Of a stretch of 64,000 nt of DNA, positions 9,456-35,721 are shown one piece after another; within the stretch, counting starts at the first letter, position 1; each line of letters opens with the position of its first letter. A program made the translations under genes and the position numbers. This DNA comes from Anderseniella sp. Alg231-50 (lineage in GTDB: Bacteria > Pseudomonadota > Alphaproteobacteria > Rhizobiales > Aestuariivirgaceae), in assembly GCF_900149695.1 (NCBI RefSeq), contig NZ_LT703003.1, positions 2,237,200-2,301,199 of the forward strand, read 5' to 3'. Under the pieces are notes generated by a model. It saw nothing but the letters and a program-made list of their open reading frames with translations, was not told where the DNA came from and did not search any database.

Positions 9456-10452
9456 TTTCCGTATCTTCCCGGGCATTGCTGCCTTGAAGTCGCTGGGCGT
9501 CGCATTGGCGGGCACGATTGTACTGTTATCGCCAACCCAGGCACCGGCGCAGACCAAGGGATCGGTCAAGGATATCGAGAAACCGCCCGTCCCCGCCATC
9601 TCCAATGCCATTCCCGCACGACTCTACTTCGGCCATATGACGGGCCCGGCCCCGTTGAAACCGGAAGTGTTCGGGTCTTATGCCCGCGGATGTGTTGCAG
9701 GCGCCGAACAGATGCCGGCAGACGGACCCGCATGGCAGGTCATGCGGCCATCCAGGGATCGCGCCTGGGGACACCCGAAACTGATCAAGATGGTCAAGCG
9801 CCTTGCCGTCGAGGCCAAGGAACATGATGGCTGGAACGGATTGCTGGTCGGAGATTTGCAACAACCGCGCGGCGGACCCATGCTGTCCGGACACGCCTCG
9901 CACCAGGCCGGACTGGATGCCGACATCTGGCTGACGCCCATGCCGGACCGCACGCTTACGCGCAAGGAACGTGAAAACAAGTCAGCCGTCCTGATGACAC
10001 TGGACCGCAAGCGCATCAACCCGAAACGCTGGACCGAAGCCCATGCGCGTCTGATCAAGCGAGCCGCATCCCACAAGCAGGTGGCCCGGATATTCGTGCA
10101 CCCTCCGATCAAGAAAGCCCTGTGCGACTGGGCCGGGAAAAAGGGTAAGTGGCTGGCCAAGGTACGCCCTCTCAAAGGCCATAACTACCATTTTCATATC
10201 CGCATGAAATGCCCGTCCGGTTCTCCACAGTGTAAAAATCAGGCAGCCCCCCGTCCCAAGGACGGCACCGGGTGCGGCGGTGAACTGGCCTACTGGTTTT
10301 CGGACAAGCCATGGAAGAAGCGGGTATACAAAAAAGCGAAAAAACGCCCTACAATCGTCAATGGTGTGCCGATTCCGCGCAAAAAGCCGATTGCACGCAA
10401 AACCCTGGCCTGGCTGCCAAAGGCATGCCGCGCACTGGTCAAAATCCAGTAA
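9436..10452 (+). CDS. mepA: penicillin-insensitive murein endopeptidase
   Basis: A 338-residue periplasmic zinc peptidase (M74/LAS family) that cleaves D-Ala-meso-DAP cross-links in peptidoglycan. A signal peptide spans residues 1 to about 39 (hydrophobic 13-31, cleavage near APAQT). The zinc motif SGHASHQAGLDADIW is at 151-165, giving His156 and Asp163 as ligands by comparison with E. coli MepA. The third ligand region is GHNYHFHIRM. The cysteines of the family are present in CPSGSPQC and GTGCGGEL. The ATG lies inside the end of sspB, with no good ribosome site, so translational coupling is likely. Confidence 0.93.
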   Translation: MRFAKNSFRIFPGIAALKSLGVALAGTIVLLSPTQAPAQTKGSVKDIEKPPVPAISNAIPARLYFGHMTGPAPLKPEVFGSYARGCVAGAEQMPADGPAWQVMRPSRDRAWGHPKLIKMVKRLAVEAKEHDGWNGLLVGDLQQPRGGPMLSGHASHQAGLDADIWLTPMPDRTLTRKERENKSAVLMTLDRKRINPKRWTEAHARLIKRAASHKQVARIFVHPPIKKALCDWAGKKGKWLAKVRPLKGHNYHFHIRMKCPSGSPQCKNQAAPRPKDGTGCGGELAYWFSDKPWKKRVYKKAKKRPTIVNGVPIPRKKPIARKTLAWLPKACRALVKIQ

Positions 10453-10583
10453 CCCGCACAATTGCACCGCCAGGTTGTACAACTTCCATTAACAAAAATT
10501 AAGAAAGCGCGAGACAAGTAGCTGATTCGCGGGTAATCTTTTTTGGGGTAAGCGAGAAAATCCGAAAACTTAGGAGCTCAAAA

Positions 10584-10943
10584 ATGAAGAAATTCCTCCT
10601 CGCAGTCACATTGGCTACTTTTGCCGTTCTGGTTGCGATGACAGGTGCAAAGGCGGCACCGGTATCAACAGGCAACCTTGCACATTCCACGGGCGTACAA
10701 TCAACAATTGAAGGCCTCACCCTGGTTCACAGAAGGAGCCGAAGGCACAATTGCCGTCGTCATGGTTGGTGTGGCGGCGGATTCACCATCGGCCCTGGCG
10801 GTATTTACATCGGCCCTGGCATTTACAACCACCACGGCTCATTTACCCGTTCCTGCCGCCGTGTGCGTCGCTTGTGCCGCCGCGAATGGGGTGGCGGTCG
10901 CAGATATCGCCGTTGCGTACGTCGTCGTGATTGCCGTCCATAG
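10584..10943 (+). CDS. small exported Cys/Arg/Gly-rich protein, unknown
   Basis: A 119-residue protein with a Sec signal (residues 1-25, MKKFLLAVTLATFAVLVAM then GAKAAP). The mature part is strongly basic. It has a His/Arg segment (RRSRRHNCRRHGWCGGG), a Gly/Ile/Pro repeat-like stretch (TIGPGGIYIGPGIY) and an Arg-rich tail carrying several Cys in pairs (SCRRVRRLCRR, RRCVRRRDC). Six mature cysteines suggest disulfides. AGGAG sits close upstream and a terminator follows, supporting a real gene. I do not recognise a family. The composition resembles small secreted cationic proteins, but no function can be assigned. Confidence 0.65.
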   Translation: MKKFLLAVTLATFAVLVAMTGAKAAPVSTGNLAHSTGVQSTIEGLTLVHRRSRRHNCRRHGWCGGGFTIGPGGIYIGPGIYNHHGSFTRSCRRVRRLCRREWGGGRRYRRCVRRRDCRP

Positions 10944-10972
10944 GATCTGGCATCTGAACTAACAGTTTGAAA

Positions 10973-11002
10973 ACGCGGCAGGTTGCTCCTGCCGCGTTTT
11001 TA
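10973..11002 (+). terminator. Rho-independent terminator
   Basis: A 10-bp perfect stem, ACGCGGCAGG (10973-10982) with CCTGCCGCGT (10988-10997), has a TTGCT loop and is followed by a T-rich tail TTTTATT. It terminates the Cys/Arg-rich exported-protein gene. Confidence 0.88.
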
Positions 11003-11096
11003 TTAGGTACTGCAGATTGCAACATTTCTGTTGCACATGGCTGTCAGTAGGGATTGTATTCTCAAACAACAACCTGCTCTGAGGCAATCTGCAACC

Positions 11097-12044
11097 ATGT
11101 CTCCTCTTTCCCTGTTCTCCCGGCCCGGTCGCTTCTGGCGTGGCAATCTCCACACTCACTCCACCTTGTCCGACGGCGCACTGGAACCGGCGCAGGTGAT
11201 CGATGCATACCGCGATGCCGGTTATGACTTCATGTCGCTGACCGATCACTTCATAGGTCACTATGACTGGCCGGTGGCCGACACACGCGCGCTGCGCACC
11301 GATGACTTTACCACCATCATCGGCGCTGAACTGCATGCACCCGCCACGGCAGTCGGCGAACTCTGGCATATTCTGGCCAATGGCCTGCCGCTGGATTTCG
11401 CGCCCTGCGCAAATGATGAGGACGGCCCGGCGCTGGCAAGACGCGCCGCAAAGGCTGGAGCCTTCGTCACCATCGCCCATCCAGCCTGGTCACAACTTAC
11501 AATGGAAGACGGCCGCGCCCTCAATGACAGCGCTGATGCGGTTGAAATATACAATCACGGGTGTGGAGTGGAAAATGATCGCGGTGACGGTTTCTATCTG
11601 CTCGACCAACTGCTCAACGAAGACCGGCGCCTGACCAGCATCGCAACCGATGATGCCCATTTCCGAGATCATGACCATGACGCTTTCGGCGGCTGGGTAC
11701 ATGTCAAGGCGGACAGTCTTGACGCGGATGCCCTGCTCGACGCGCTCAAAGCCGGATATTTCTATTCAAGCCAGGGACCGCAGTTCCATGCGATTGATCT
11801 AGACGGCACCGAACTTGCCATCGAATGCTCACCGGTCAACGCCATAACCATCAATGGCGGCACGTCGCGAACAGTCTCGCGCACCGGGCGTTCACTGACC
11901 CGCGTTACTCTCGACCTGGCAAATCTGGATAATGGCTGGCTCAAATGCCCGCCCTCCAAATGGGTGCGGGTGGTGATCCGCGATGAGGCCGGTAAATGCG
12001 CCTGGACCAACCCGATTTGGCTCGAGGACATTGGCCTGAGCTGA
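11097..12044 (+). CDS. PHP-domain phosphoesterase-like protein
   Basis: About 315 residues from the ATG at 11097; the frame is open back to 11031 but that part looks non-coding. The N-terminal metal motif NLHTHSTLSDG identifies the polymerase-and-histidinol-phosphatase fold. It is supported by SLTDHF, GAELHA, IAHPAW and TDDAHF, which supply the remaining His and Asp ligands of a trinuclear metal site. Members hydrolyse phosphoesters; substrates vary (nucleoside phosphates, 3',5'-bisphosphates). The C-terminal third (about 220-315) is a beta-rich extension. It sits alone 60 bp upstream of fumC. The specific substrate is unknown. Confidence 0.8.
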   Translation: MSPLSLFSRPGRFWRGNLHTHSTLSDGALEPAQVIDAYRDAGYDFMSLTDHFIGHYDWPVADTRALRTDDFTTIIGAELHAPATAVGELWHILANGLPLDFAPCANDEDGPALARRAAKAGAFVTIAHPAWSQLTMEDGRALNDSADAVEIYNHGCGVENDRGDGFYLLDQLLNEDRRLTSIATDDAHFRDHDHDAFGGWVHVKADSLDADALLDALKAGYFYSSQGPQFHAIDLDGTELAIECSPVNAITINGGTSRTVSRTGRSLTRVTLDLANLDNGWLKCPPSKWVRVVIRDEAGKCAWTNPIWLEDIGLS

Positions 12045-28924: not shown

Positions 28925-29680
28925 ATGTCTGAAACCGAATGGACACCGGACCAGCCGATCGTCTCGATCAGGGATGTGCACAAGTCGTTCGGCGACCTTG
29001 AGGTGCTGAAAGGCGTCAGCCTGGATGTGATGAAGGGTGAGGTGATCTGCATTATTGGACCGTCCGGATCCGGCAAGTCGACGCTGATCCGGTGCATCAA
29101 TGCATTGAACGACATCCAGGCAGGTTCCATTCAGGTTGAAGGCCAGGAGGTCAATGCCCCCGGTCTGAACAAGCTGGAACTGCGCAAGAAAGTCGGCATG
29201 GTGTTCCAGCAGTACAACCTGTTCCCGCACAAGACGGCGCTCGAAAATGTCATGATGGCGCCGTTGCTGGTTTTGAAACAGCCCGAAGAAGAAGTTGAAA
29301 AACGTGCCCGTGCGCTGGTCAAGAAGGTGCGCCTGGAGGGCAAGGAAAACAATTATCCCGGCGAACTGTCAGGCGGCCAGCAACAGCGTGTCGCCATCGC
29401 CCGTTCGCTGGCCATGAACCCTGACGTGATGCTGTTTGACGAAGTCACCGCCGCCCTTGACCCGGAAACGGTCAAAGAGGTGCTGGTGACCATCAAGGAC
29501 CTGGCGGCCGAGGGCATGACCTGCATCCTGGTCACCCACGAAATGGGTTTTGCCCGCGAGATCGCCGACCATATCTATTTCACCGACCGCGGTGTCATCG
29601 TCGAGCACGGGCCGCCCAAGACATTTTTCAAAAGCGCCAAGGACCCGCGCACGCGCGAGTTCCTCAGCCAGATCCTGTAG
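28925..29680 (+). CDS. amino-acid ABC transporter ATP-binding protein
   Basis: A 251-residue ATPase of the GlnQ/HisP type that powers the importer encoded just upstream. Walker A GPSGSGKS is at residues 45-52, the Q-loop is in MVFQQYNLFPHKT, the signature is LSGGQQQR, and Walker B is VMLFDEVTAALDPE with the H-loop in LVTHEMGFA. All catalytic elements are intact. It is the last gene of the four-gene transporter run, 87 bp before the membrane-protein gene that begins the next module. Confidence 0.94.
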   Translation: MSETEWTPDQPIVSIRDVHKSFGDLEVLKGVSLDVMKGEVICIIGPSGSGKSTLIRCINALNDIQAGSIQVEGQEVNAPGLNKLELRKKVGMVFQQYNLFPHKTALENVMMAPLLVLKQPEEEVEKRARALVKKVRLEGKENNYPGELSGGQQQRVAIARSLAMNPDVMLFDEVTAALDPETVKEVLVTIKDLAAEGMTCILVTHEMGFAREIADHIYFTDRGVIVEHGPPKTFFKSAKDPRTREFLSQIL

Positions 29681-29734
29681 TCCCGCCAGACCGCCCTGCC
29701 AATTCGGACTTGCGTTTCACTTTGCGTTTCCATA

Positions 29735-29753
29735 TACTTTGCATTGTAAAGTA
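29735..29753. promoter_or_regulatory. near-palindromic operator upstream of the membrane-protein/regulator/prenyltransferase module
   Basis: TACTTTGCATTGTAAAGTA is nearly palindromic. Its 17-bp core (29736-29752) is the exact reverse complement of a second site at 30786-30802. It lies 15 bp before the ATG at 29768, where it would cover the promoter or early transcript. An extra half-site ACTTTGC lies at 29719-29725. The winged-helix regulator encoded in the module is the natural candidate to bind it. Confidence 0.7.
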
Positions 29754-29767
29754 AATTGGATTCCCTG

Positions 29768-30388
29768 ATGAAAGACATCGATCGCGCCCTTGCGGATATT
29801 TCGGATATGCGCAACCAGCTCGCCGCCGGCACCATGTTTCGCGGGTTCGGTCCCGCCGTCATGGCATTGAGCGGAGCCCTTGCAGCGCTGACCGCGTTCT
29901 CCCAGATGCTGTGGCCTGAGCTGCTTGCAGCAGATCTTACAAGCTACGTCGTGACCTGGCTCGTCACCGCAGCGCTTGCGGCCTGCCTGATCTCTGCCGA
30001 AGTCTATGCACGCTCCCATCGTCATCATGGCGGGCTGGCCGACGCCATCGTGCTGAACGCCTTCGAGCAATTCCTGCCGGCAGGCTTTGCCGGCCTGGCT
30101 GCAACCCTGGTCATCTGGAAATTTGCGCCTGAAGCTTTGTGGACCCTGCCCGGTCTATGGCAGGTGTTTCTGGCGCTCGGCATTTTTGCCGGCGCACGCT
30201 CCCTGCCCCGCACCGTTCGCTGGATCGGCGGCTGGTATTTCGTCTCCGGTTTCACTGTCCTGATGCTGGCCAGTTCCTCGTCCGCCCTGTCGCCCTGGCT
30301 GATGGGTGTACCCTTTACACTCGGCCAACTGGCGCTCGCAGGCGTCCTGCATTTTGCCTATGGAGAATACCATGCCGACACAAAGTAA
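29768..30388 (+). CDS. multi-pass membrane protein of unknown function
   Basis: About 206 residues from ATG 29768; an in-frame TTG at 29756 is less likely. A short cytoplasmic helix (MKDIDRALADISDMRNQLA) is followed by about six hydrophobic segments, including AVMALSGALAALTAF, VVTWLVTAALAACLI, GFAGLAATLVIWKFA and LWQVFLALGIFAG. No known transporter or enzyme motif is visible. Its stop overlaps the regulator gene by 17 bp, so the two are translationally coupled. It is the first gene of a three-gene module with a cis-prenyltransferase. A link to isoprenoid lipids or membrane state is an inference from context only. Confidence 0.75.
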   Translation: MKDIDRALADISDMRNQLAAGTMFRGFGPAVMALSGALAALTAFSQMLWPELLAADLTSYVVTWLVTAALAACLISAEVYARSHRHHGGLADAIVLNAFEQFLPAGFAGLAATLVIWKFAPEALWTLPGLWQVFLALGIFAGARSLPRTVRWIGGWYFVSGFTVLMLASSSSALSPWLMGVPFTLGQLALAGVLHFAYGEYHADTK

Positions 30389-30749
30389 TGCGCCGTTTTC
30401 CTATGACGGGCTCGACCGGGTGATCCATGAGAAGGCGCGGTTGAGTGTCATGACGTCGCTGATCTCGCATCCGAAAGGCCTTGCCTTCAATGAACTGAAG
30501 AAGCTATGCGGCCTGACAGACGGCAACCTGTCACGCCATGTGCAGGTACTGGCCGAGGCCGGTCTCGTAGCTGTCCACAAGGGCTATGAAGGCAACCGCC
30601 CGCACACTTCCTGCGCGCTGACCCCTGCCGGTCGCGAACGCTTCCTGGACTACCTCAACGTCCTCGAACAGGTCGTGCGCAACGCCAGTTCGGCCGTTGA
30701 CGAAACCTCTCCCGTCTCACCCGGTGCAGGCAAACTGAAGCCCGCCTGA
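30372..30749 (+). CDS. winged-helix transcriptional regulator
   Basis: A 125-residue regulator from ATG 30372. The core KARLSVMTSLISHPKGLAFNELKKL followed by LTDGNLSRHVQVLAEAGLV is a MarR/ArsR-like winged helix (HTH_34 type). The wing is KGYEGNRPHTSCALTPAGRERF. The C-terminal tail is short, with no ligand domain and no metal-binding Cys. It lies between a membrane-protein gene and a cis-prenyltransferase gene, and two matching operator copies flank the module's genes. Autoregulation and repression of the prenyltransferase are likely but inferred. Confidence 0.85.
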   Translation: MPTQSNAPFSYDGLDRVIHEKARLSVMTSLISHPKGLAFNELKKLCGLTDGNLSRHVQVLAEAGLVAVHKGYEGNRPHTSCALTPAGRERFLDYLNVLEQVVRNASSAVDETSPVSPGAGKLKPA

Positions 30750-30785
30750 CTTCAATCCCCATCCGTCAAAAAAATTTAACAAGGA

Positions 30786-30802
30786 ACTTTACAATGCAAA
30801 GT
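30786..30802. promoter_or_regulatory. second operator copy, overlapping the prenyltransferase start codon
   Basis: ACTTTACAATGCAAAGT is the exact reverse complement of the 17-bp core at 29736-29752. The ATG of the downstream gene (30794-30796) sits in its centre, so the second to fourth codons (CAA AGT ..) are partly fixed by the operator. Binding here could block transcription from an internal promoter or act as a roadblock. Confidence 0.7.
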
Positions 30803-31546
30803 AATCTGCATAACAAAACAACACCTGCTCCCTTGCATGTCGGCATCATCATGGACGGTAACGGCCGCTGGGGCGAGCAGCGCGGCCTCAGCCGGACCGA
30901 TGGCCATCATGCCGGCGTCGATGCGGTGCGCCGTGTCATGATGGCAGCCCCCGGCCTCAACATCGACACCCTGACCATGTTCGCGTTCTCGTCGGACAAC
31001 TGGAAGCGGCCGAAACCGGAAGTCGACGGCATGATGCAACTCATCGAGCACTATATGACAATGGAAGCGCAGCCGTTTGCCGACGCAGGTGTCAGGCTGA
31101 CAGTCATCGGACGCCGTGACCGGCTGCCCGCGACAACTGTGGCTGCCATCGAGAGGATCGAGGCGATCACGGCCGGCGGCACCATGCTCAATGCCCGCCT
31201 TGCCATCGACTTCTCCGGCCGTCATGCCCTGCTGGAAGCGGCAGCCAGGGCATTCTGGAACGGCCCGCTTACCGCCGACACCCTGTCGCAGTCTCTGGCC
31301 ACCGGCTCTGGATATCGCGACATCGACCTGCTGATCCGCACCAGCGGCGAGCAACGGCTGTCGGATTTCCTGCTCTGGGAATGCGCTTATGCCGAACTCT
31401 GGTTCACCAGGACACTATGGCCAGACTTCACTGGCGAAGAACTGACAGACGCAGTTGACGCTTTCAGAAACCGCAACCGCCGGTTTGGCGGTCTGCCCGG
31501 CGCCATGCCCGCAGTTGGCGCGCCGCAGATGCAGCTTACGACCTGA
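30794..31546 (+). CDS. uppS: cis-prenyltransferase (undecaprenyl diphosphate synthase family)
   Basis: A 250-residue enzyme with the full family set: IIMDGNGRWGEQRG with catalytic Asp21, GHHAGVDAVRRV, MFAFSSDNWKRPKPEV, DLLIRTSGEQRLSDFLLWECAYAE and LWPDF. The family condenses isopentenyl diphosphate onto allylic diphosphates to make Z-polyprenyl carriers. The housekeeping gene normally sits with frr and cdsA. This copy is in a regulated module with a membrane protein and a winged-helix regulator, so it may be a second, condition-specific enzyme. Its start codon lies inside an operator. The stop overlaps the convergent oxidoreductase gene by 11 bp. Confidence 0.9.
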   Translation: MQSNLHNKTTPAPLHVGIIMDGNGRWGEQRGLSRTDGHHAGVDAVRRVMMAAPGLNIDTLTMFAFSSDNWKRPKPEVDGMMQLIEHYMTMEAQPFADAGVRLTVIGRRDRLPATTVAAIERIEAITAGGTMLNARLAIDFSGRHALLEAAARAFWNGPLTADTLSQSLATGSGYRDIDLLIRTSGEQRLSDFLLWECAYAELWFTRTLWPDFTGEELTDAVDAFRNRNRRFGGLPGAMPAVGAPQMQLTT

Positions 31547-33956
31547 CCCGTATATTCTCCGGATCATACCGGCACGGGTCACAGACCCTTGCCGGGACCG
31601 GTTCACCGACCACCTCCACCTGGAGGTTTTGCCCGGAGCTGACGCAGCACGGATCGACAAACCCCATGGCCAGATTCCTGCTGACCCGGTGACCCCAGGC
31701 CGCAGACGTTACCGTACCTGCCACCTTGCCGTCGCACAGGATACTGTCACCCGGATGGGCTGCCGCATGATCAGCATCCAGTTCGAGGGACACAAACACC
31801 CGTCGCGGCCCCTCTCCGCTCATGCCTTCCAGGGCCTGTTTGCCGACGAACTGCTTGTCCATCTTCACAAACCGCTCAAGGCCGGATTCCACCGGGTTGA
31901 ACTCGGTGATCAGGTCCGCCTTCCAGTGCCGGTAACCCTTCTCGATGCGCATGGAGTCAACCGCGTGCAGACCGAAGTGTACCAGCCCGAACGGCTCTCC
32001 GGCCGCCGTCAGTGCGGCGTAACAATCTACAAGACCTTCATTCGGCACGTGTAACTCCCACGCCAGTTCGCCGGAAAAGCTTACAGCCATGGCAACGATC
32101 CGGTGCCCGGCAACCGTAAGTTCCTTTACACTCAACCAGCCGAATGCATCCTTTGACCAGTCAGTGTCGGCAAACGCCGCCTGCAACAGGCCGCGTGCCT
32201 CAGGCCCCGCCACAACCAGAATGGAGTGCGTGTCCACAAGGCCTGTGATGGTGATCGAGCCGTCACCGGGCAGATGCTCGATCAGCCAGTCCATGTCGTG
32301 CAGTTCAGCCGCCGCCGCCGAGCCGTACCAGACACGATCCGGGCCCAGGTTGGCCAGAGTTGCTTCGCCTTTTACATTGCCGTCATCATTGAGGAAGTAG
32401 GTCAGCCCCACCCTCCCCGGCTTGCGCGGCACCCGTGAGCACATGATGGTGTCCAGCCATTCATGCACGCCTTCACCGTTGATTTCATAACGGTTGAAAC
32501 CCGATACCTCCATGATGCCGACACGGTCGCGGACCGCCTCGACTTCCCTGGCAACCACGTCGAACGTGTTGTTGAAACGGAACGAATGGACCTCTTCGAA
32601 GTCCGGCGACGGCTTGAAATACAAGGCCCGCTCCCAGCCGTTCACCACCCCGAACTCGGCGCCTGCCTGTTTGAGCGTGTCGTACAACGGCGTCGTCCGG
32701 GCCGGGCGTCCGGCAGGCCGGTGTTCATGCGGCATGTGGAACCGGAACTCGTTCTGGTAATCCTCGATCGACTTCAGCGCTGTATAGTCAATATCGGCAT
32801 ACTTTGCGAAACGGCGCGGGTCGAGGCACCAGGTGTCATAACACGCCTCGCCATGCACGATCTGTTGCGCCAGCAGCCAGCCATGGCCGCCGCCTTCGCC
32901 AAGCCCCGCCCTCAATCCGGTGATACACCAGGCATTGCGCTTGCCCGGCACATGCCCGACCAGCGGCAGGCCATCAGGGGTGTAGGTGATCGGGCCATTG
33001 ATGATGGTGTGAATGCCCACCTCGGTGAGGCACGGCATCCGCTCAAACACGTTCTCCAGCACCGGCAACACCCGGTCCGGATCATCCGGGCAAAGCGCGT
33101 TGGTGAAATCAGGATCGATGCCGTCCAGCCCCCAGGTCCGGCAATCCTGCTCATAGAACCCCACCAGCAGGCCGTTCTTCTCCTGCCGGGAGTAGAAATC
33201 ATCTGTCGGGCAGCGGATCAGCGGCACCCTGAAGTCCAGCGCCTCAATGTCGGCAATCGGCTCGGTCAGAAAATACTGGTGCTCCATGGAGGCGACCGGA
33301 TGCACGACATCCATCATGGCGCCCAGTTCATTGCAGCGGTACCCGCCTGCATTCACAACATGCTCACAGGTTATGTCGCCCTGCGCCGTGTGCACGACCC
33401 ATTCATGATTTGCCGCCTGCGTCAGGCCGGTTACCGGCGTATGGCGATAGACCTCAGCACCTGCATTGCGGGCCCGGCGCGACAGTGCCTGGCACAATTG
33501 CGCCGGATCAATATCGCCATCCATCGGATCCCAAAGCGCACCGGCCAGGTTGTCTGTCGTGATCAGCGGGTGGCGTTTGCGGCATTCCTCGGCATCGATG
33601 ATCTCGAACTCAACGCCCATGCCCCTGGCCATCGACCGGAAATGTGCATACCCGTCGAGATGGTCCTGTGTTGCGGCCAGCCTGAGCCCGCCGGTGCCAT
33701 GATGATAGTTGATCGGGTATTCAGGATCTTCCGCCAATTCCTTGTAAAGATTGATGGAATGGGTTTTCAGGCCGACCATGGTCTGCACCGCGCCGAAATT
33801 CGTCACCTGCGCAGCCGAATGCCATGTCGTACCTGACGTCAGCTCATCGCGCTCGAGCAGAACGACATCACTCCAGCCTTCCTGCGTCAGGTGATACAGC
33901 GTCGAACAACCGGCGATGCCGCCGCCGATAACGACGACCCGTGCGTGAGATTTCAT
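31536..33956 (-). CDS. dimethylglycine/sarcosine dehydrogenase-like FAD enzyme with GcvT domain
   Basis: About 806 residues from ATG 33956. The N-terminal FAD domain has VVVIGGGIAGCSTLYHL and SGTTWHSAAQ; the His46 of that motif corresponds to the flavinylated His of mammalian dimethylglycine dehydrogenase. The C-terminal half (about 430-806) is a folate-binding GcvT-like domain, with the EVSGFNRYEINGEGVHEWLD start and GFVDP end. Such fusions oxidise N-methyl groups and transfer the one-carbon unit to tetrahydrofolate. The gene is divergent from an MttB-family methyltransferase gene, so both probably work on methylated amines. The exact substrate (dimethylglycine, sarcosine or another) is not determined. 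Confidence 0.87.
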   Translation of the reverse strand: MKSHARVVVIGGGIAGCSTLYHLTQEGWSDVVLLERDELTSGTTWHSAAQVTNFGAVQTMVGLKTHSINLYKELAEDPEYPINYHHGTGGLRLAATQDHLDGYAHFRSMARGMGVEFEIIDAEECRKRHPLITTDNLAGALWDPMDGDIDPAQLCQALSRRARNAGAEVYRHTPVTGLTQAANHEWVVHTAQGDITCEHVVNAGGYRCNELGAMMDVVHPVASMEHQYFLTEPIADIEALDFRVPLIRCPTDDFYSRQEKNGLLVGFYEQDCRTWGLDGIDPDFTNALCPDDPDRVLPVLENVFERMPCLTEVGIHTIINGPITYTPDGLPLVGHVPGKRNAWCITGLRAGLGEGGGHGWLLAQQIVHGEACYDTWCLDPRRFAKYADIDYTALKSIEDYQNEFRFHMPHEHRPAGRPARTTPLYDTLKQAGAEFGVVNGWERALYFKPSPDFEEVHSFRFNNTFDVVAREVEAVRDRVGIMEVSGFNRYEINGEGVHEWLDTIMCSRVPRKPGRVGLTYFLNDDGNVKGEATLANLGPDRVWYGSAAAAELHDMDWLIEHLPGDGSITITGLVDTHSILVVAGPEARGLLQAAFADTDWSKDAFGWLSVKELTVAGHRIVAMAVSFSGELAWELHVPNEGLVDCYAALTAAGEPFGLVHFGLHAVDSMRIEKGYRHWKADLITEFNPVESGLERFVKMDKQFVGKQALEGMSGEGPRRVFVSLELDADHAAAHPGDSILCDGKVAGTVTSAAWGHRVSRNLAMGFVDPCCVSSGQNLQVEVVGEPVPARVCDPCRYDPENIRVRS

Positions 33957-34146
33957 ACTGGTATTTCCACTGCATTCTTGAATTGGGTGGTCGCTAACCC
34001 GCCACACGCGGTGCGCTCATGCAAGCGGTCTTGCGCAAGTTGAGTTTTATTGATTGCCAGGTTCAATTTGGCTGACCCCCTTATATTGTACCCGCTTCGA
34101 GAACATACTCAGGTTGTGCAGGGAAAACCGTAGCGGCAGCAAACAG
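33957..34146. promoter_or_regulatory. divergent promoter region of the DMGDH-like and MttB-like genes
   Basis: A 190-bp space between two divergent demethylation genes. It contains a perfect 10-bp palindrome CTTGCGCAAG (34030-34039) and flanking GCAAGCGGTCTTGC. It also has a relatively AT-rich stretch around 34040-34090. The nearby LysR gene (35684-36733) is the likely regulator, but no clear T-N11-A box could be assigned. Confidence 0.4.
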
Positions 34147-35721
34147 ATGACATCTGGAGAAGTCAGGAACGGAAAGCGGATCAGCGCCAGGGCCGGCGGC
34201 CGGGCTGCGCGGCTGTCTGCGCGAACTGCCGACGTGCCGCAATTCAACCCCTGCCCGCCGGGCCAGAGCGGCGGGACATACAAACCGCTCAGCGAAACCG
34301 GCATCAAAGCCATCTACGACACGGCCCTGAAACTTCTGTCTGAACTGGGCATGGGTGATGTGCCTGAAGAGTTTCGCAATCTGGCCCTGAGCAAGGGGGC
34401 AAGCCTGAATGACCGCGGGCGCCTGGTCTACCCGCCGGTCCTGGTGGAAGACATCATTGCAGGAGCAGCGAAGCAATTCGTGTTCCATGGCCGTGATCCG
34501 AAACACGACTTCGAGATTGGTGGTGACGTTGTCAGGTTTGGCACCGGAGGAGCCGCCGTCCAGACACTCGATATCGAAACCGGGCAATACCGCCCCTCGA
34601 CCTTGCATGATCTGTATGACTTCACCCGGCTGATCGACACCCTTACCAATGTCAGCTGGTTCACCCGCAGTTGTGTTGCAACGGACATTCCCGACAATTT
34701 CGACCTCGATGTGAACACCGCCTATGCCCTGCTGGCGGGCACGACGAAACCGGTCGGCACCAGCTTCACCCTGGCATCCCATGTCGATCCGATCATCGAC
34801 ATGTTTGATCTGGCACTTGGCGGAGACGGCAAGTACAGCGAACGGCCGTTCTGCAAGGCCCACATTTCGCCGGTCATTTCGCCCATGCGGTACGGCGAGG
34901 ATGCCGTCGACGTGACCATGGCCTGCGTTCGCCGCCGCGTCCCGATCAACGCAATCATCGCTGCCCAGTCGGGCGCGACCGCGCCCGCACCGCCTGCCGG
35001 CTTCCTGGCACAATCGCTGGCTGAAACCCTGGCAAGCCTCATGCTGGTCAACCTGATCGAACCGGGATATCCGATGATCTTCTCCAACTGGCCGCTGGTC
35101 ATAGACCTCCGCACAGGGGGCTTCAGCGGCGGCGGCGGGGAGAACGCCGTCATGAATGCTGCGGCTGCCCAATTGTCCAACTGGCTGGGCCTGCCGTCCG
35201 GTGTGGCCAGTTCAATGAGCGACGCCAAGGCCGTTGATGCGCAAATGGGTTCAGAGAAAGCCCTGTCGGCATTGGCGGCAGGGCTTGCCGGCGCCAACAT
35301 GGTGTATGAAAGTTCCGGCATGATGGCCAGCCTGCTGGGCGCATCCTTCGAGGCATTCGTTGCCGATGATGAAATGCTGTCCCACATCTACAGGATCATA
35401 CGAGGCATCGAGGTCAGCGACGCCACGCTTGGCTATGACGCCATCTGCGACGCCGTGCTTGGCGAAGGCCATTTCCTCGGTGGCGACGATACCATTGCCG
35501 CCATGCAGCGGGACTACTTCTATCCGTCCATGGCAGACCGCGATGACCCGCGCACCTGGGCCGACAAGGGCGCACCGGACTTGTGGAGCAAGGCACGCGA
35601 CCGGGCACGCGAAACACTAGCCAGTCATTATCCCGTCTACCTGTCAAACACGGCGGACAGTGCCATACGGGATCGGTTCAACATCATGCTTGCGCGGGAG
35701 AGGATGCGGCCTCCTGCATGA
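34147..35721 (+). CDS. MttB-family (trimethylamine/glycine betaine) methyltransferase, non-pyrrolysine
   Basis: About 524 residues from ATG 34147; the frame is open back to 34054. The MttB-fold signs are YKPLSETGIKAIYDTALKLLSELGMG, FGTGGAAVQTLDIETG, AYALLAGTTKPVGTSF and EAFVADDEMLSHIYRIIRGIEV. No in-frame TAG occurs, so it lacks the pyrrolysine of archaeal MttB, like bacterial betaine methyltransferases (MtgB). Such enzymes move a methyl group from a quaternary amine to a corrinoid protein. No corrinoid protein or MtgA-like partner is in the window. The C-terminus overlaps the convergent LysR gene by 38 bp. Confidence 0.87.
   Translation: MTSGEVRNGKRISARAGGRAARLSARTADVPQFNPCPPGQSGGTYKPLSETGIKAIYDTALKLLSELGMGDVPEEFRNLALSKGASLNDRGRLVYPPVLVEDIIAGAAKQFVFHGRDPKHDFEIGGDVVRFGTGGAAVQTLDIETGQYRPSTLHDLYDFTRLIDTLTNVSWFTRSCVATDIPDNFDLDVNTAYALLAGTTKPVGTSFTLASHVDPIIDMFDLALGGDGKYSERPFCKAHISPVISPMRYGEDAVDVTMACVRRRVPINAIIAAQSGATAPAPPAGFLAQSLAETLASLMLVNLIEPGYPMIFSNWPLVIDLRTGGFSGGGGENAVMNAAAAQLSNWLGLPSGVASSMSDAKAVDAQMGSEKALSALAAGLAGANMVYESSGMMASLLGASFEAFVADDEMLSHIYRIIRGIEVSDATLGYDAICDAVLGEGHFLGGDDTIAAMQRDYFYPSMADRDDPRTWADKGAPDLWSKARDRARETLASHYPVYLSNTADSAIRDRFNIMLARERMRPPA

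Follow-up and report, generated by a model that had tools for sequence, protein, structure and literature searches.

A 64,000-nucleotide stretch of the Anderseniella sp. Alg231-50 genome (contig NZ_LT703003.1, positions 2,237,200 to 2,301,199), referred to here in its entirety as the window, carries three adjacent genes encoding a membrane protein, a winged-helix regulator and a cis-prenyltransferase that we designate UppS2. An earlier note, prepared from the sequence alone, had described these genes as a tight unit with two matching 17-bp sites and had proposed a switchable Z-polyprenyl lipid system, separate from housekeeping undecaprenyl phosphate synthesis. The module was compared across bacterial genomes, and its sites, proteins and neighbouring genes were analyzed. 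The existence of a regulated three-gene module is well supported, and its interpretation as an autoregulated, dedicated cis-prenyltransferase switch appears to us somewhat better than an even proposition. The genes and signals of the module, in window coordinates, are as follows.

29768 to 30388, + strand: gene for a membrane protein of 206 amino acids, without a Pfam or NCBIfam family; a relative is present in 86 of 86 loci
30372 to 30749, + strand: gene for the winged-helix regulator of 125 amino acids, PF13601 (HTH_34), overlapping the membrane-protein gene
30794 to 31546, + strand: gene for UppS2, a second cis-prenyltransferase of 250 amino acids, PF01255
29736 to 29752, no strand: predicted operator 1, ACTTTGCATTGTAAAGT, before the membrane-protein gene
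30786 to 30802, no strand: predicted operator 2, ACTTTACAATGCAAAGT, over the uppS2 start codon (ATG CAA AGT, encoding M Q S)
29710 to 29715, + strand: -35-like TTGCGT of the presumed module promoter; CTTGC is conserved before site 1
29719 to 29725, + strand: additional operator half-site ACTTTGC, 17 bp ahead of operator 1
29733 to 29738, + strand: -10-like TATACT, overlapped by operator 1 and separated from TTGCGT by a 17-nt spacer
30781 to 30785, + strand: ribosome-binding-site-like AAGGA, directly before operator 2

The comparison set comprises 86 loci. Named genomes were scanned with an alignment of six regulators, yielding 497 regulator relatives, of which the best 80 were kept; the window, a plasmid of Aureimonas sp. 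AU20 and four class genomes were added. Named Bradyrhizobium account for 61 loci, while the other 25 include Methylobacterium, Rhodobium, Faunimonas, Fulvimarina, Antarcticirhabdus and several metagenome-assembled genomes (MAGs). By the closest named relatives of its regulator and UppS2, the window derives from an Anderseniella-like alphaproteobacterium. The gene order of membrane protein, HTH_34 regulator and UppS2 is kept in all 86, and the unit described in the earlier note proved correct in the position of each gene, all three lying on the + strand. A close regulator (at least 187 bits; next 76.6) was detected in 11 of 150 genomes drawn from the window's order, a sample that overlaps the named-genome set. 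Nine of these loci are further to the window and genome G283; all nine contain the membrane protein, UppS2 and the site at the uppS2 start, and six contain the site by the membrane-protein gene. Within the same sample, none of the four other genomes of the window's own family has a close copy. At the level of the class, UppS2-type matches (at least 363 bits; next 296.6) occur in 5 of 289 genomes, and the same five carry the close regulator (E below 1e-40; next 4.5e-19). The literature yielded no account of such a module, as far as titles, the openings of abstracts and passages of three papers show.

The two sites, ACTTTGCATTGTAAAGT and ACTTTACAATGCAAAGT, are near-palindromes of 17 bp and exact reverse complements of each other, bracketing the membrane-protein and regulator genes as the earlier note had reported. 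Its placement of the second site was also right, with one detail missed: operator 2 covers the start codon of uppS2 (30794-30796), and ATGCAAAGT encodes Met-Gln-Ser. When the window was searched with a pattern in IUPAC (International Union of Pure and Applied Chemistry) code, allowing up to three mismatches, only these two places were found, compared with a mean of 0.16 in 100 shuffles, one of which contained two. The whole 4.6-Mb genome contains no further site within one mismatch besides the two of the module; allowing two mismatches adds a single place, with two mismatches, at C1:17190, and a backwards control pattern likewise matches once. The core is thus not spread over many unrelated loci; such a spread is what the earlier note had named as counting against its proposal.

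For comparison across loci, sites were scored over ten arm positions, ACTTT and AAAGT, and called at a score of 9 or 10. Such a site precedes the membrane-protein gene in 84 of 86 loci and lies at the uppS2 start in 82 of 86, confirming its presence at the orthologous modules examined; among 14502 control windows of 260 nt, four reach a score of 9 and none a score of 10. Two sites scoring at least 9 are found in 79 modules, one in six and three in one, whereas 1.13 Mb of flank sequence holds two such sites. The distance between the two sites of a module ranges from 1025 to 1162 bp across loci. In 85 of 86 loci, the start codon at positions 9-11 of site 2 shares an uninterrupted frame with UppS2; the exception is L084, where this start codon is out of frame with the tblastn match. 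The opening codons of uppS2 are ATG-CAA-AGT in 66 loci and ATG-CAA-AGC in 12 (ATG-CAA-AGY in 78). CAA is the second codon in 85 of 86 genes, compared with 51 of 321 Gln codons elsewhere in UppS2 genes, and AGT the third in 68 of 86, compared with 18 of 878 Ser codons in the rest of these genes; the use of arm scores to choose sites makes the letters AAAGT partly conditional, with position and frame unaffected. Judged by these codon and arm frequencies, both predicted operators are under selection as DNA.

A strict form of the motif, RCTTTRYRNYRYAAAGY, was counted in 36 module genomes, of which 24 have two sites, eight have one, three have none and one, G313, has three. The third site in G313 marks the start of a second module copy (L162, on contig C111 of this MAG), which has its own operator at the uppS2 start and an uppS2 match in two frames. 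As a control, 278 class genomes were searched: the four module genomes contain two sites each, and among the 274 non-module genomes, 29 contain one and one contains two. One of these 29 single sites, in G063, precedes a distant HTH_34 pair (L128). The window, genome, module-genome and class-genome counts rule out the motif as a common repeat, and the set of predicted regulator sites looks nearly sealed, that is, nearly confined to the module.

Repressor sites usually overlap the -10 element or lie at the start codon. The consensus over 84 aligned site-1 stretches reads CTTGC, then TAT immediately preceding ACTTTG. CTTGC lies in the stretch from 30 to 18 nt ahead of site 1 in 78 of 86 loci, compared with 192 of 17200 random 12-nt windows; TAT stands just before site 1 in 75, and a half-site CTTTGY lies 18 to 9 nt before it in 59. 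A conserved operator-like site therefore overlaps promoter-like sequence ahead of the regulator's own transcription unit, which makes autorepression by the module regulator likely. Ahead of site 2, the consensus shows a T-rich stretch and one resembling a ribosome-binding site, with G at -4 in 83% and at -3 in 95% of 81 aligned operator-2 sites. Two Methylobacterium loci (L047 and L049) contain an additional palindrome, resembling TTGCA...GCAAA, some 45 bp ahead of operator 1.

The regulator matches PF13601 with 77.4 bits (cut-off 27), which makes it an HTH_34 member, in agreement with its description as a winged helix; the near confinement of its predicted sites to the module also fits its description as dedicated. 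Its nearest PDB sequence is PH1061 (1ub9; E 4.7e-8). Identity as a metal-sensing ArsR/SmtB protein was considered and rejected, the score against NF033788 being 29.6 bits, below the cut-off of 55. The membrane protein had been said to have no known motif, which agrees with the Pfam, NCBIfam and PDB fold searches, the last returning 119 matches at E <= 10 and none at E <= 0.001. Its predicted structure (predicted local distance difference test, pLDDT, 84.0; predicted template modelling score, pTM, 0.76) consists of one short helix at the N terminus followed by six longer ones, which we read as membrane helices.

Eleven distant HTH_34 loci (L123-L132 and L038) provide a comparison for this gene pair. 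An open reading frame (ORF) for a hydrophobic protein, about 180-255 amino acids by reading, ends directly before the regulator in 10 of 11, and a site of the ACTTTn7AAAGT type lies just before this ORF in four; in a fifth locus one lies farther upstream. The distant pairs thus share with the module a membrane-protein gene preceding a PF13601 regulator, but no uppS match was found in the stretch examined around any of the 11. Profile comparison of the module and distant-locus membrane proteins was not significant, though their N-terminal patterns look alike. As these pairs occur without uppS, some with the same site, the pairing of sensor and regulator may predate its association with uppS2, and the HTH_34 regulator and membrane protein perhaps represent a general sensor-regulator pair.

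Two proteins in the window genome match PF01255. The second is encoded at C3:364615-365277, flanked by frr and cdsA; by reading of the ORFs, the gene order there is tsf, pyrH, frr, uppS, cdsA, dxr, rseP and bamA. Because this copy holds the frr-cdsA place, the window UppS2 is not the housekeeping enzyme, and its identity as a sole, housekeeping uppS is ruled out; a second uppS near frr/cdsA, which the earlier note had suggested looking for, therefore exists and is 43% identical to the window copy. The two enzymes share their family and catalytic residues and differ in sequence and neighbourhood, the housekeeping gene having no such regulator and its product falling outside the UppS2 clade. UppS2 proteins form one clade apart from 26 sampled other UppS, with a support of 100/100, and their specific conserved changes in 17 rows include an invariant E196 and a nearly invariant D191.

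UppS2 scores 234.2 bits against PF01255 (cut-off 27) and 207.2 against TIGR00055 (cut-off 109.55). Its best NCBIfam model is NF011412 (PRK14839, di-trans,poly-cis-decaprenylcistransferase), where its 331.3 bits lie 2.7 below the curated cut-off of 334; the next model reaches 241.2. With the E. coli numbering and roles as we take them to be, all 11 active-site positions are kept, including the catalytic Asp and the Arg/Ser that bind isopentenyl diphosphate (IPP). A69, V105 and L137, which presumably matter for UppS chain length, are as in E. coli UppS, making a medium- or long-chain product likely on the basis of these residues.

A second UppS has a precedent in Clostridioides difficile, whose UppS2 is proposed to serve one surface polymer (PMC4973711, PMC12548448). 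That gene is placed there in a glycan locus, whereas the window gene sits beside a regulator and a membrane protein. No glycan genes are present among the window flank ORFs looked at (a listing covering 22-40 kb, with six proteins scanned); the six are the solute-binding protein, permease and ATPase of an ATP-binding cassette (ABC) transporter, a flavin adenine dinucleotide (FAD)/GcvT oxidoreductase, an MTTB-family protein and a UvrD helicase. The oxidoreductase gene (31536-34007, - strand; dimethylglycine-dehydrogenase-like by reading) and the MTTB-family methyltransferase gene (34054-35721, + strand) are the module's neighbours in the window.

Genes behind uppS2 at the 86 loci were counted by tblastn with five chosen queries, so that other families may exist; this re-count was made because greedy ORF choice sometimes took antisense frames, and clustering of the flanks mostly recovered Bradyrhizobium neighbourhoods. 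Representative downstream genes, in the coordinates of each locus, are listed below.

L047:9228-10751: BchE-like B12-binding radical S-adenosylmethionine (SAM) gene
L037:6128-8582: Ldi-family and DAGK-family genes
L039:9198-11558: Ldi-family and DAGK-family genes
L214:4733-7261, - strand: Ldi-family and DAGK-family genes

The BchE-like gene, present at 23 of 86 loci, is co-directional and begins 19-240 bp after the UppS2 match ends; these loci are 16 Bradyrhizobium, two Methylobacterium, Rhodobium, two Aurantimonadaceae, a Hyphomicrobiales MAG and one genome of the window's order. Outside the 23 are L088 and L109, two Bradyrhizobium loci whose 25- and 37-residue matches behind uppS2 may be remnants; L040 (genome G264), where a different B12 radical-SAM protein, under every NCBIfam cut-off, follows uppS2 at about 9920-11355; and the partial matches in the order loci L196, L198 and L199. 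With 511 and 507 bits, the BchE-like gene exceeds the cut-off of 481 set for the BchE model and would therefore be named a bacteriochlorophyll enzyme. Among 18 chosen module genomes, presumed true BchE (n=3) scores 802-820 bits compared with 507-550 for the BchE-like proteins, Rhodobium having both, and all seven matches in the 507-550-bit band lie at the module. The 278 class genomes contain no match in this band; they hold five BchE genes at 783-831 bits, besides two pieces in a single genome that fall short of the cut-off.

Ldi-family (PF18566) and DAGK-family genes follow uppS2 in three loci (L037, L039 and L214), spaced by 4 nt in L214 and 7 nt in L039. PF18566 matches occur in 4 of 278 class genomes; that of G148, at the module, reaches 224 bits, and the others reach at most 57. 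The linalool isomerase Lis of Thauera linaloolentis is described as a protein of 644 amino acids with four predicted N-terminal membrane helices (PMC4791888). The Ldi-family proteins of the three loci resemble it in length and in a hydrophobic N-terminal part; they differ in standing behind uppS2 at loci other than the window. Genes for DUF4153 membrane proteins lie in the same run behind uppS2 in L042 (5509-6993, - strand) and L214 (3139-4689, - strand), and the query L080d matches sequence that lies upstream of the module in many Bradyrhizobium. None of the searched downstream gene types is found behind uppS2 in the window or in most of the 86 loci. The window genome contains no DAGK, no PF18566 match and a distant radical-SAM match only.

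Taken as a mechanism, these features would operate as follows. The HTH_34 regulator, most likely a repressor, would bind as a dimer to the predicted operators 1 and 2. Binding at operator 1 would cover the -10 element of the module promoter, and operator 2 would act as a second lock on uppS2, blocking either an internal promoter or RNA polymerase arriving from promoter 1; since no promoter is evident before site 2, both an internal promoter and a roadblock are possible. The six-helix membrane protein would most likely report the state of the membrane or its lipids to the regulator. On release, UppS2 would synthesize a Z-polyprenyl diphosphate of medium or long chain length, in addition to the output of the housekeeping UppS.

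Several observations weigh against this interpretation. The strict motif is absent from 3 of the 36 module genomes and single in 8, one of the two strict-motif sites of G312 (L163) lies away from module genes, and the site by the membrane-protein gene was not seen in three of the nine further loci of the order sample. A generic sigma-70 consensus scan of 29600-31620 gave no promoter, site 1 included, and operator 2 lies between the ribosome-binding site and the start codon, with no promoter evident before it. Other positions in the chain-length region differ from E. coli UppS (V97A, L139A). Finally, 61 of the 86 loci are Bradyrhizobium, so the counts are not independent, and the set represents the best 80 of 497 regulator relatives, with 417 more distant ones outside it.

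Two rival accounts concern how the sites act. Operator 2 might be an RNA hairpin hiding the start codon rather than a DNA site, since its near-palindrome spans that codon. This is very improbable: the same element overlies the promoter-like sequence of gene 1 and precedes the membrane gene at some distant HTH_34 loci without uppS, and a hairpin in which five outer pairs (four A-U) close a 7-nt loop would have little stability. The regulator might alternatively be an activator or dual regulator, to which the conserved extra half-site, located between -35 and -10 and 17 bp ahead of operator 1, would lend itself; we regard this as unlikely, as operator 1 sits on a -10-like sequence and operator 2 on the start codon, both typical of repression.

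Two further accounts concern the fate of the UppS2 product. It may initiate a separate, tailored lipid, being isomerised or dehydrated, rephosphorylated or modified by a B12 radical-SAM enzyme instead of becoming wall undecaprenyl phosphate. The downstream partners have known relatives whose substrates are isoprenoids, lipids or porphyrins. This favours such a lipid, and the genes at other loci suggest it: the BchE-like gene follows uppS2 in seven loci beyond the 16 of Bradyrhizobium, in the genomes searched its score band is found at the module only, the Ldi-like and DAGK genes accompany uppS2 in three loci with a likeness to linalool isomerase in length and membrane anchor, and the only PF18566 match above 57 bits in the class genomes lies at a module. 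Against this stand the loci, the window among them, where the searches found no such gene, together with a window genome devoid of DAGK and PF18566 matches and with a radical-SAM match that is distant; we therefore place the tailored lipid a little short of an even chance. UppS2 may instead be an inducible spare that raises the supply of undecaprenyl phosphate under envelope stress, as its catalytic residues and A69, V105 and L137, identical to those of E. coli UppS, and the absence of glycan and tailoring genes among the ORFs inspected around the window copy would allow. The separate clade with its own changes at E196 and D191, the nearly sealed set of sites and the isoprenoid-type genes linked at other loci argue against a mere spare, which we hold possible without expecting it.

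The earlier note's suggestion of a switchable, separate lipid system is partly supported. The self-contained unit, the regulator, the twin sites and the second UppS have held, while the indirect evidence for a separate lipid, isoprenoid- and lipid-type genes behind uppS2, comes from some other loci and not from the window. The underlying observation is confirmed as right in every coordinate and is stronger than claimed. The fullest version of the proposal, offered tentatively and with more doubt than confidence, is a dedicated, sealed switch, locked at two operators, one of them within the first codons of uppS2, for an undescribed alphaproteobacterial Z-polyprenyl lipid finished by lineage-specific tailoring enzymes: in some Bradyrhizobium, Methylobacterium and other genomes a BchE-like B12 radical-SAM paralogue, and elsewhere a linalool-isomerase-like membrane enzyme with a DAGK-family (possibly polyprenol) kinase.

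If the switch reading is true, Bradyrhizobium, Methylobacterium and Aurantimonadaceae would possess a second cis-prenyltransferase that can be switched apart from the wall-building one, and many soil and plant bacteria would be concerned. It would also offer a route to an undescribed polyprenyl lipid and a function for the BchE-like radical-SAM paralogue. The operator within the coding start of uppS2 provides a compact example of DNA-level constraint on codons.

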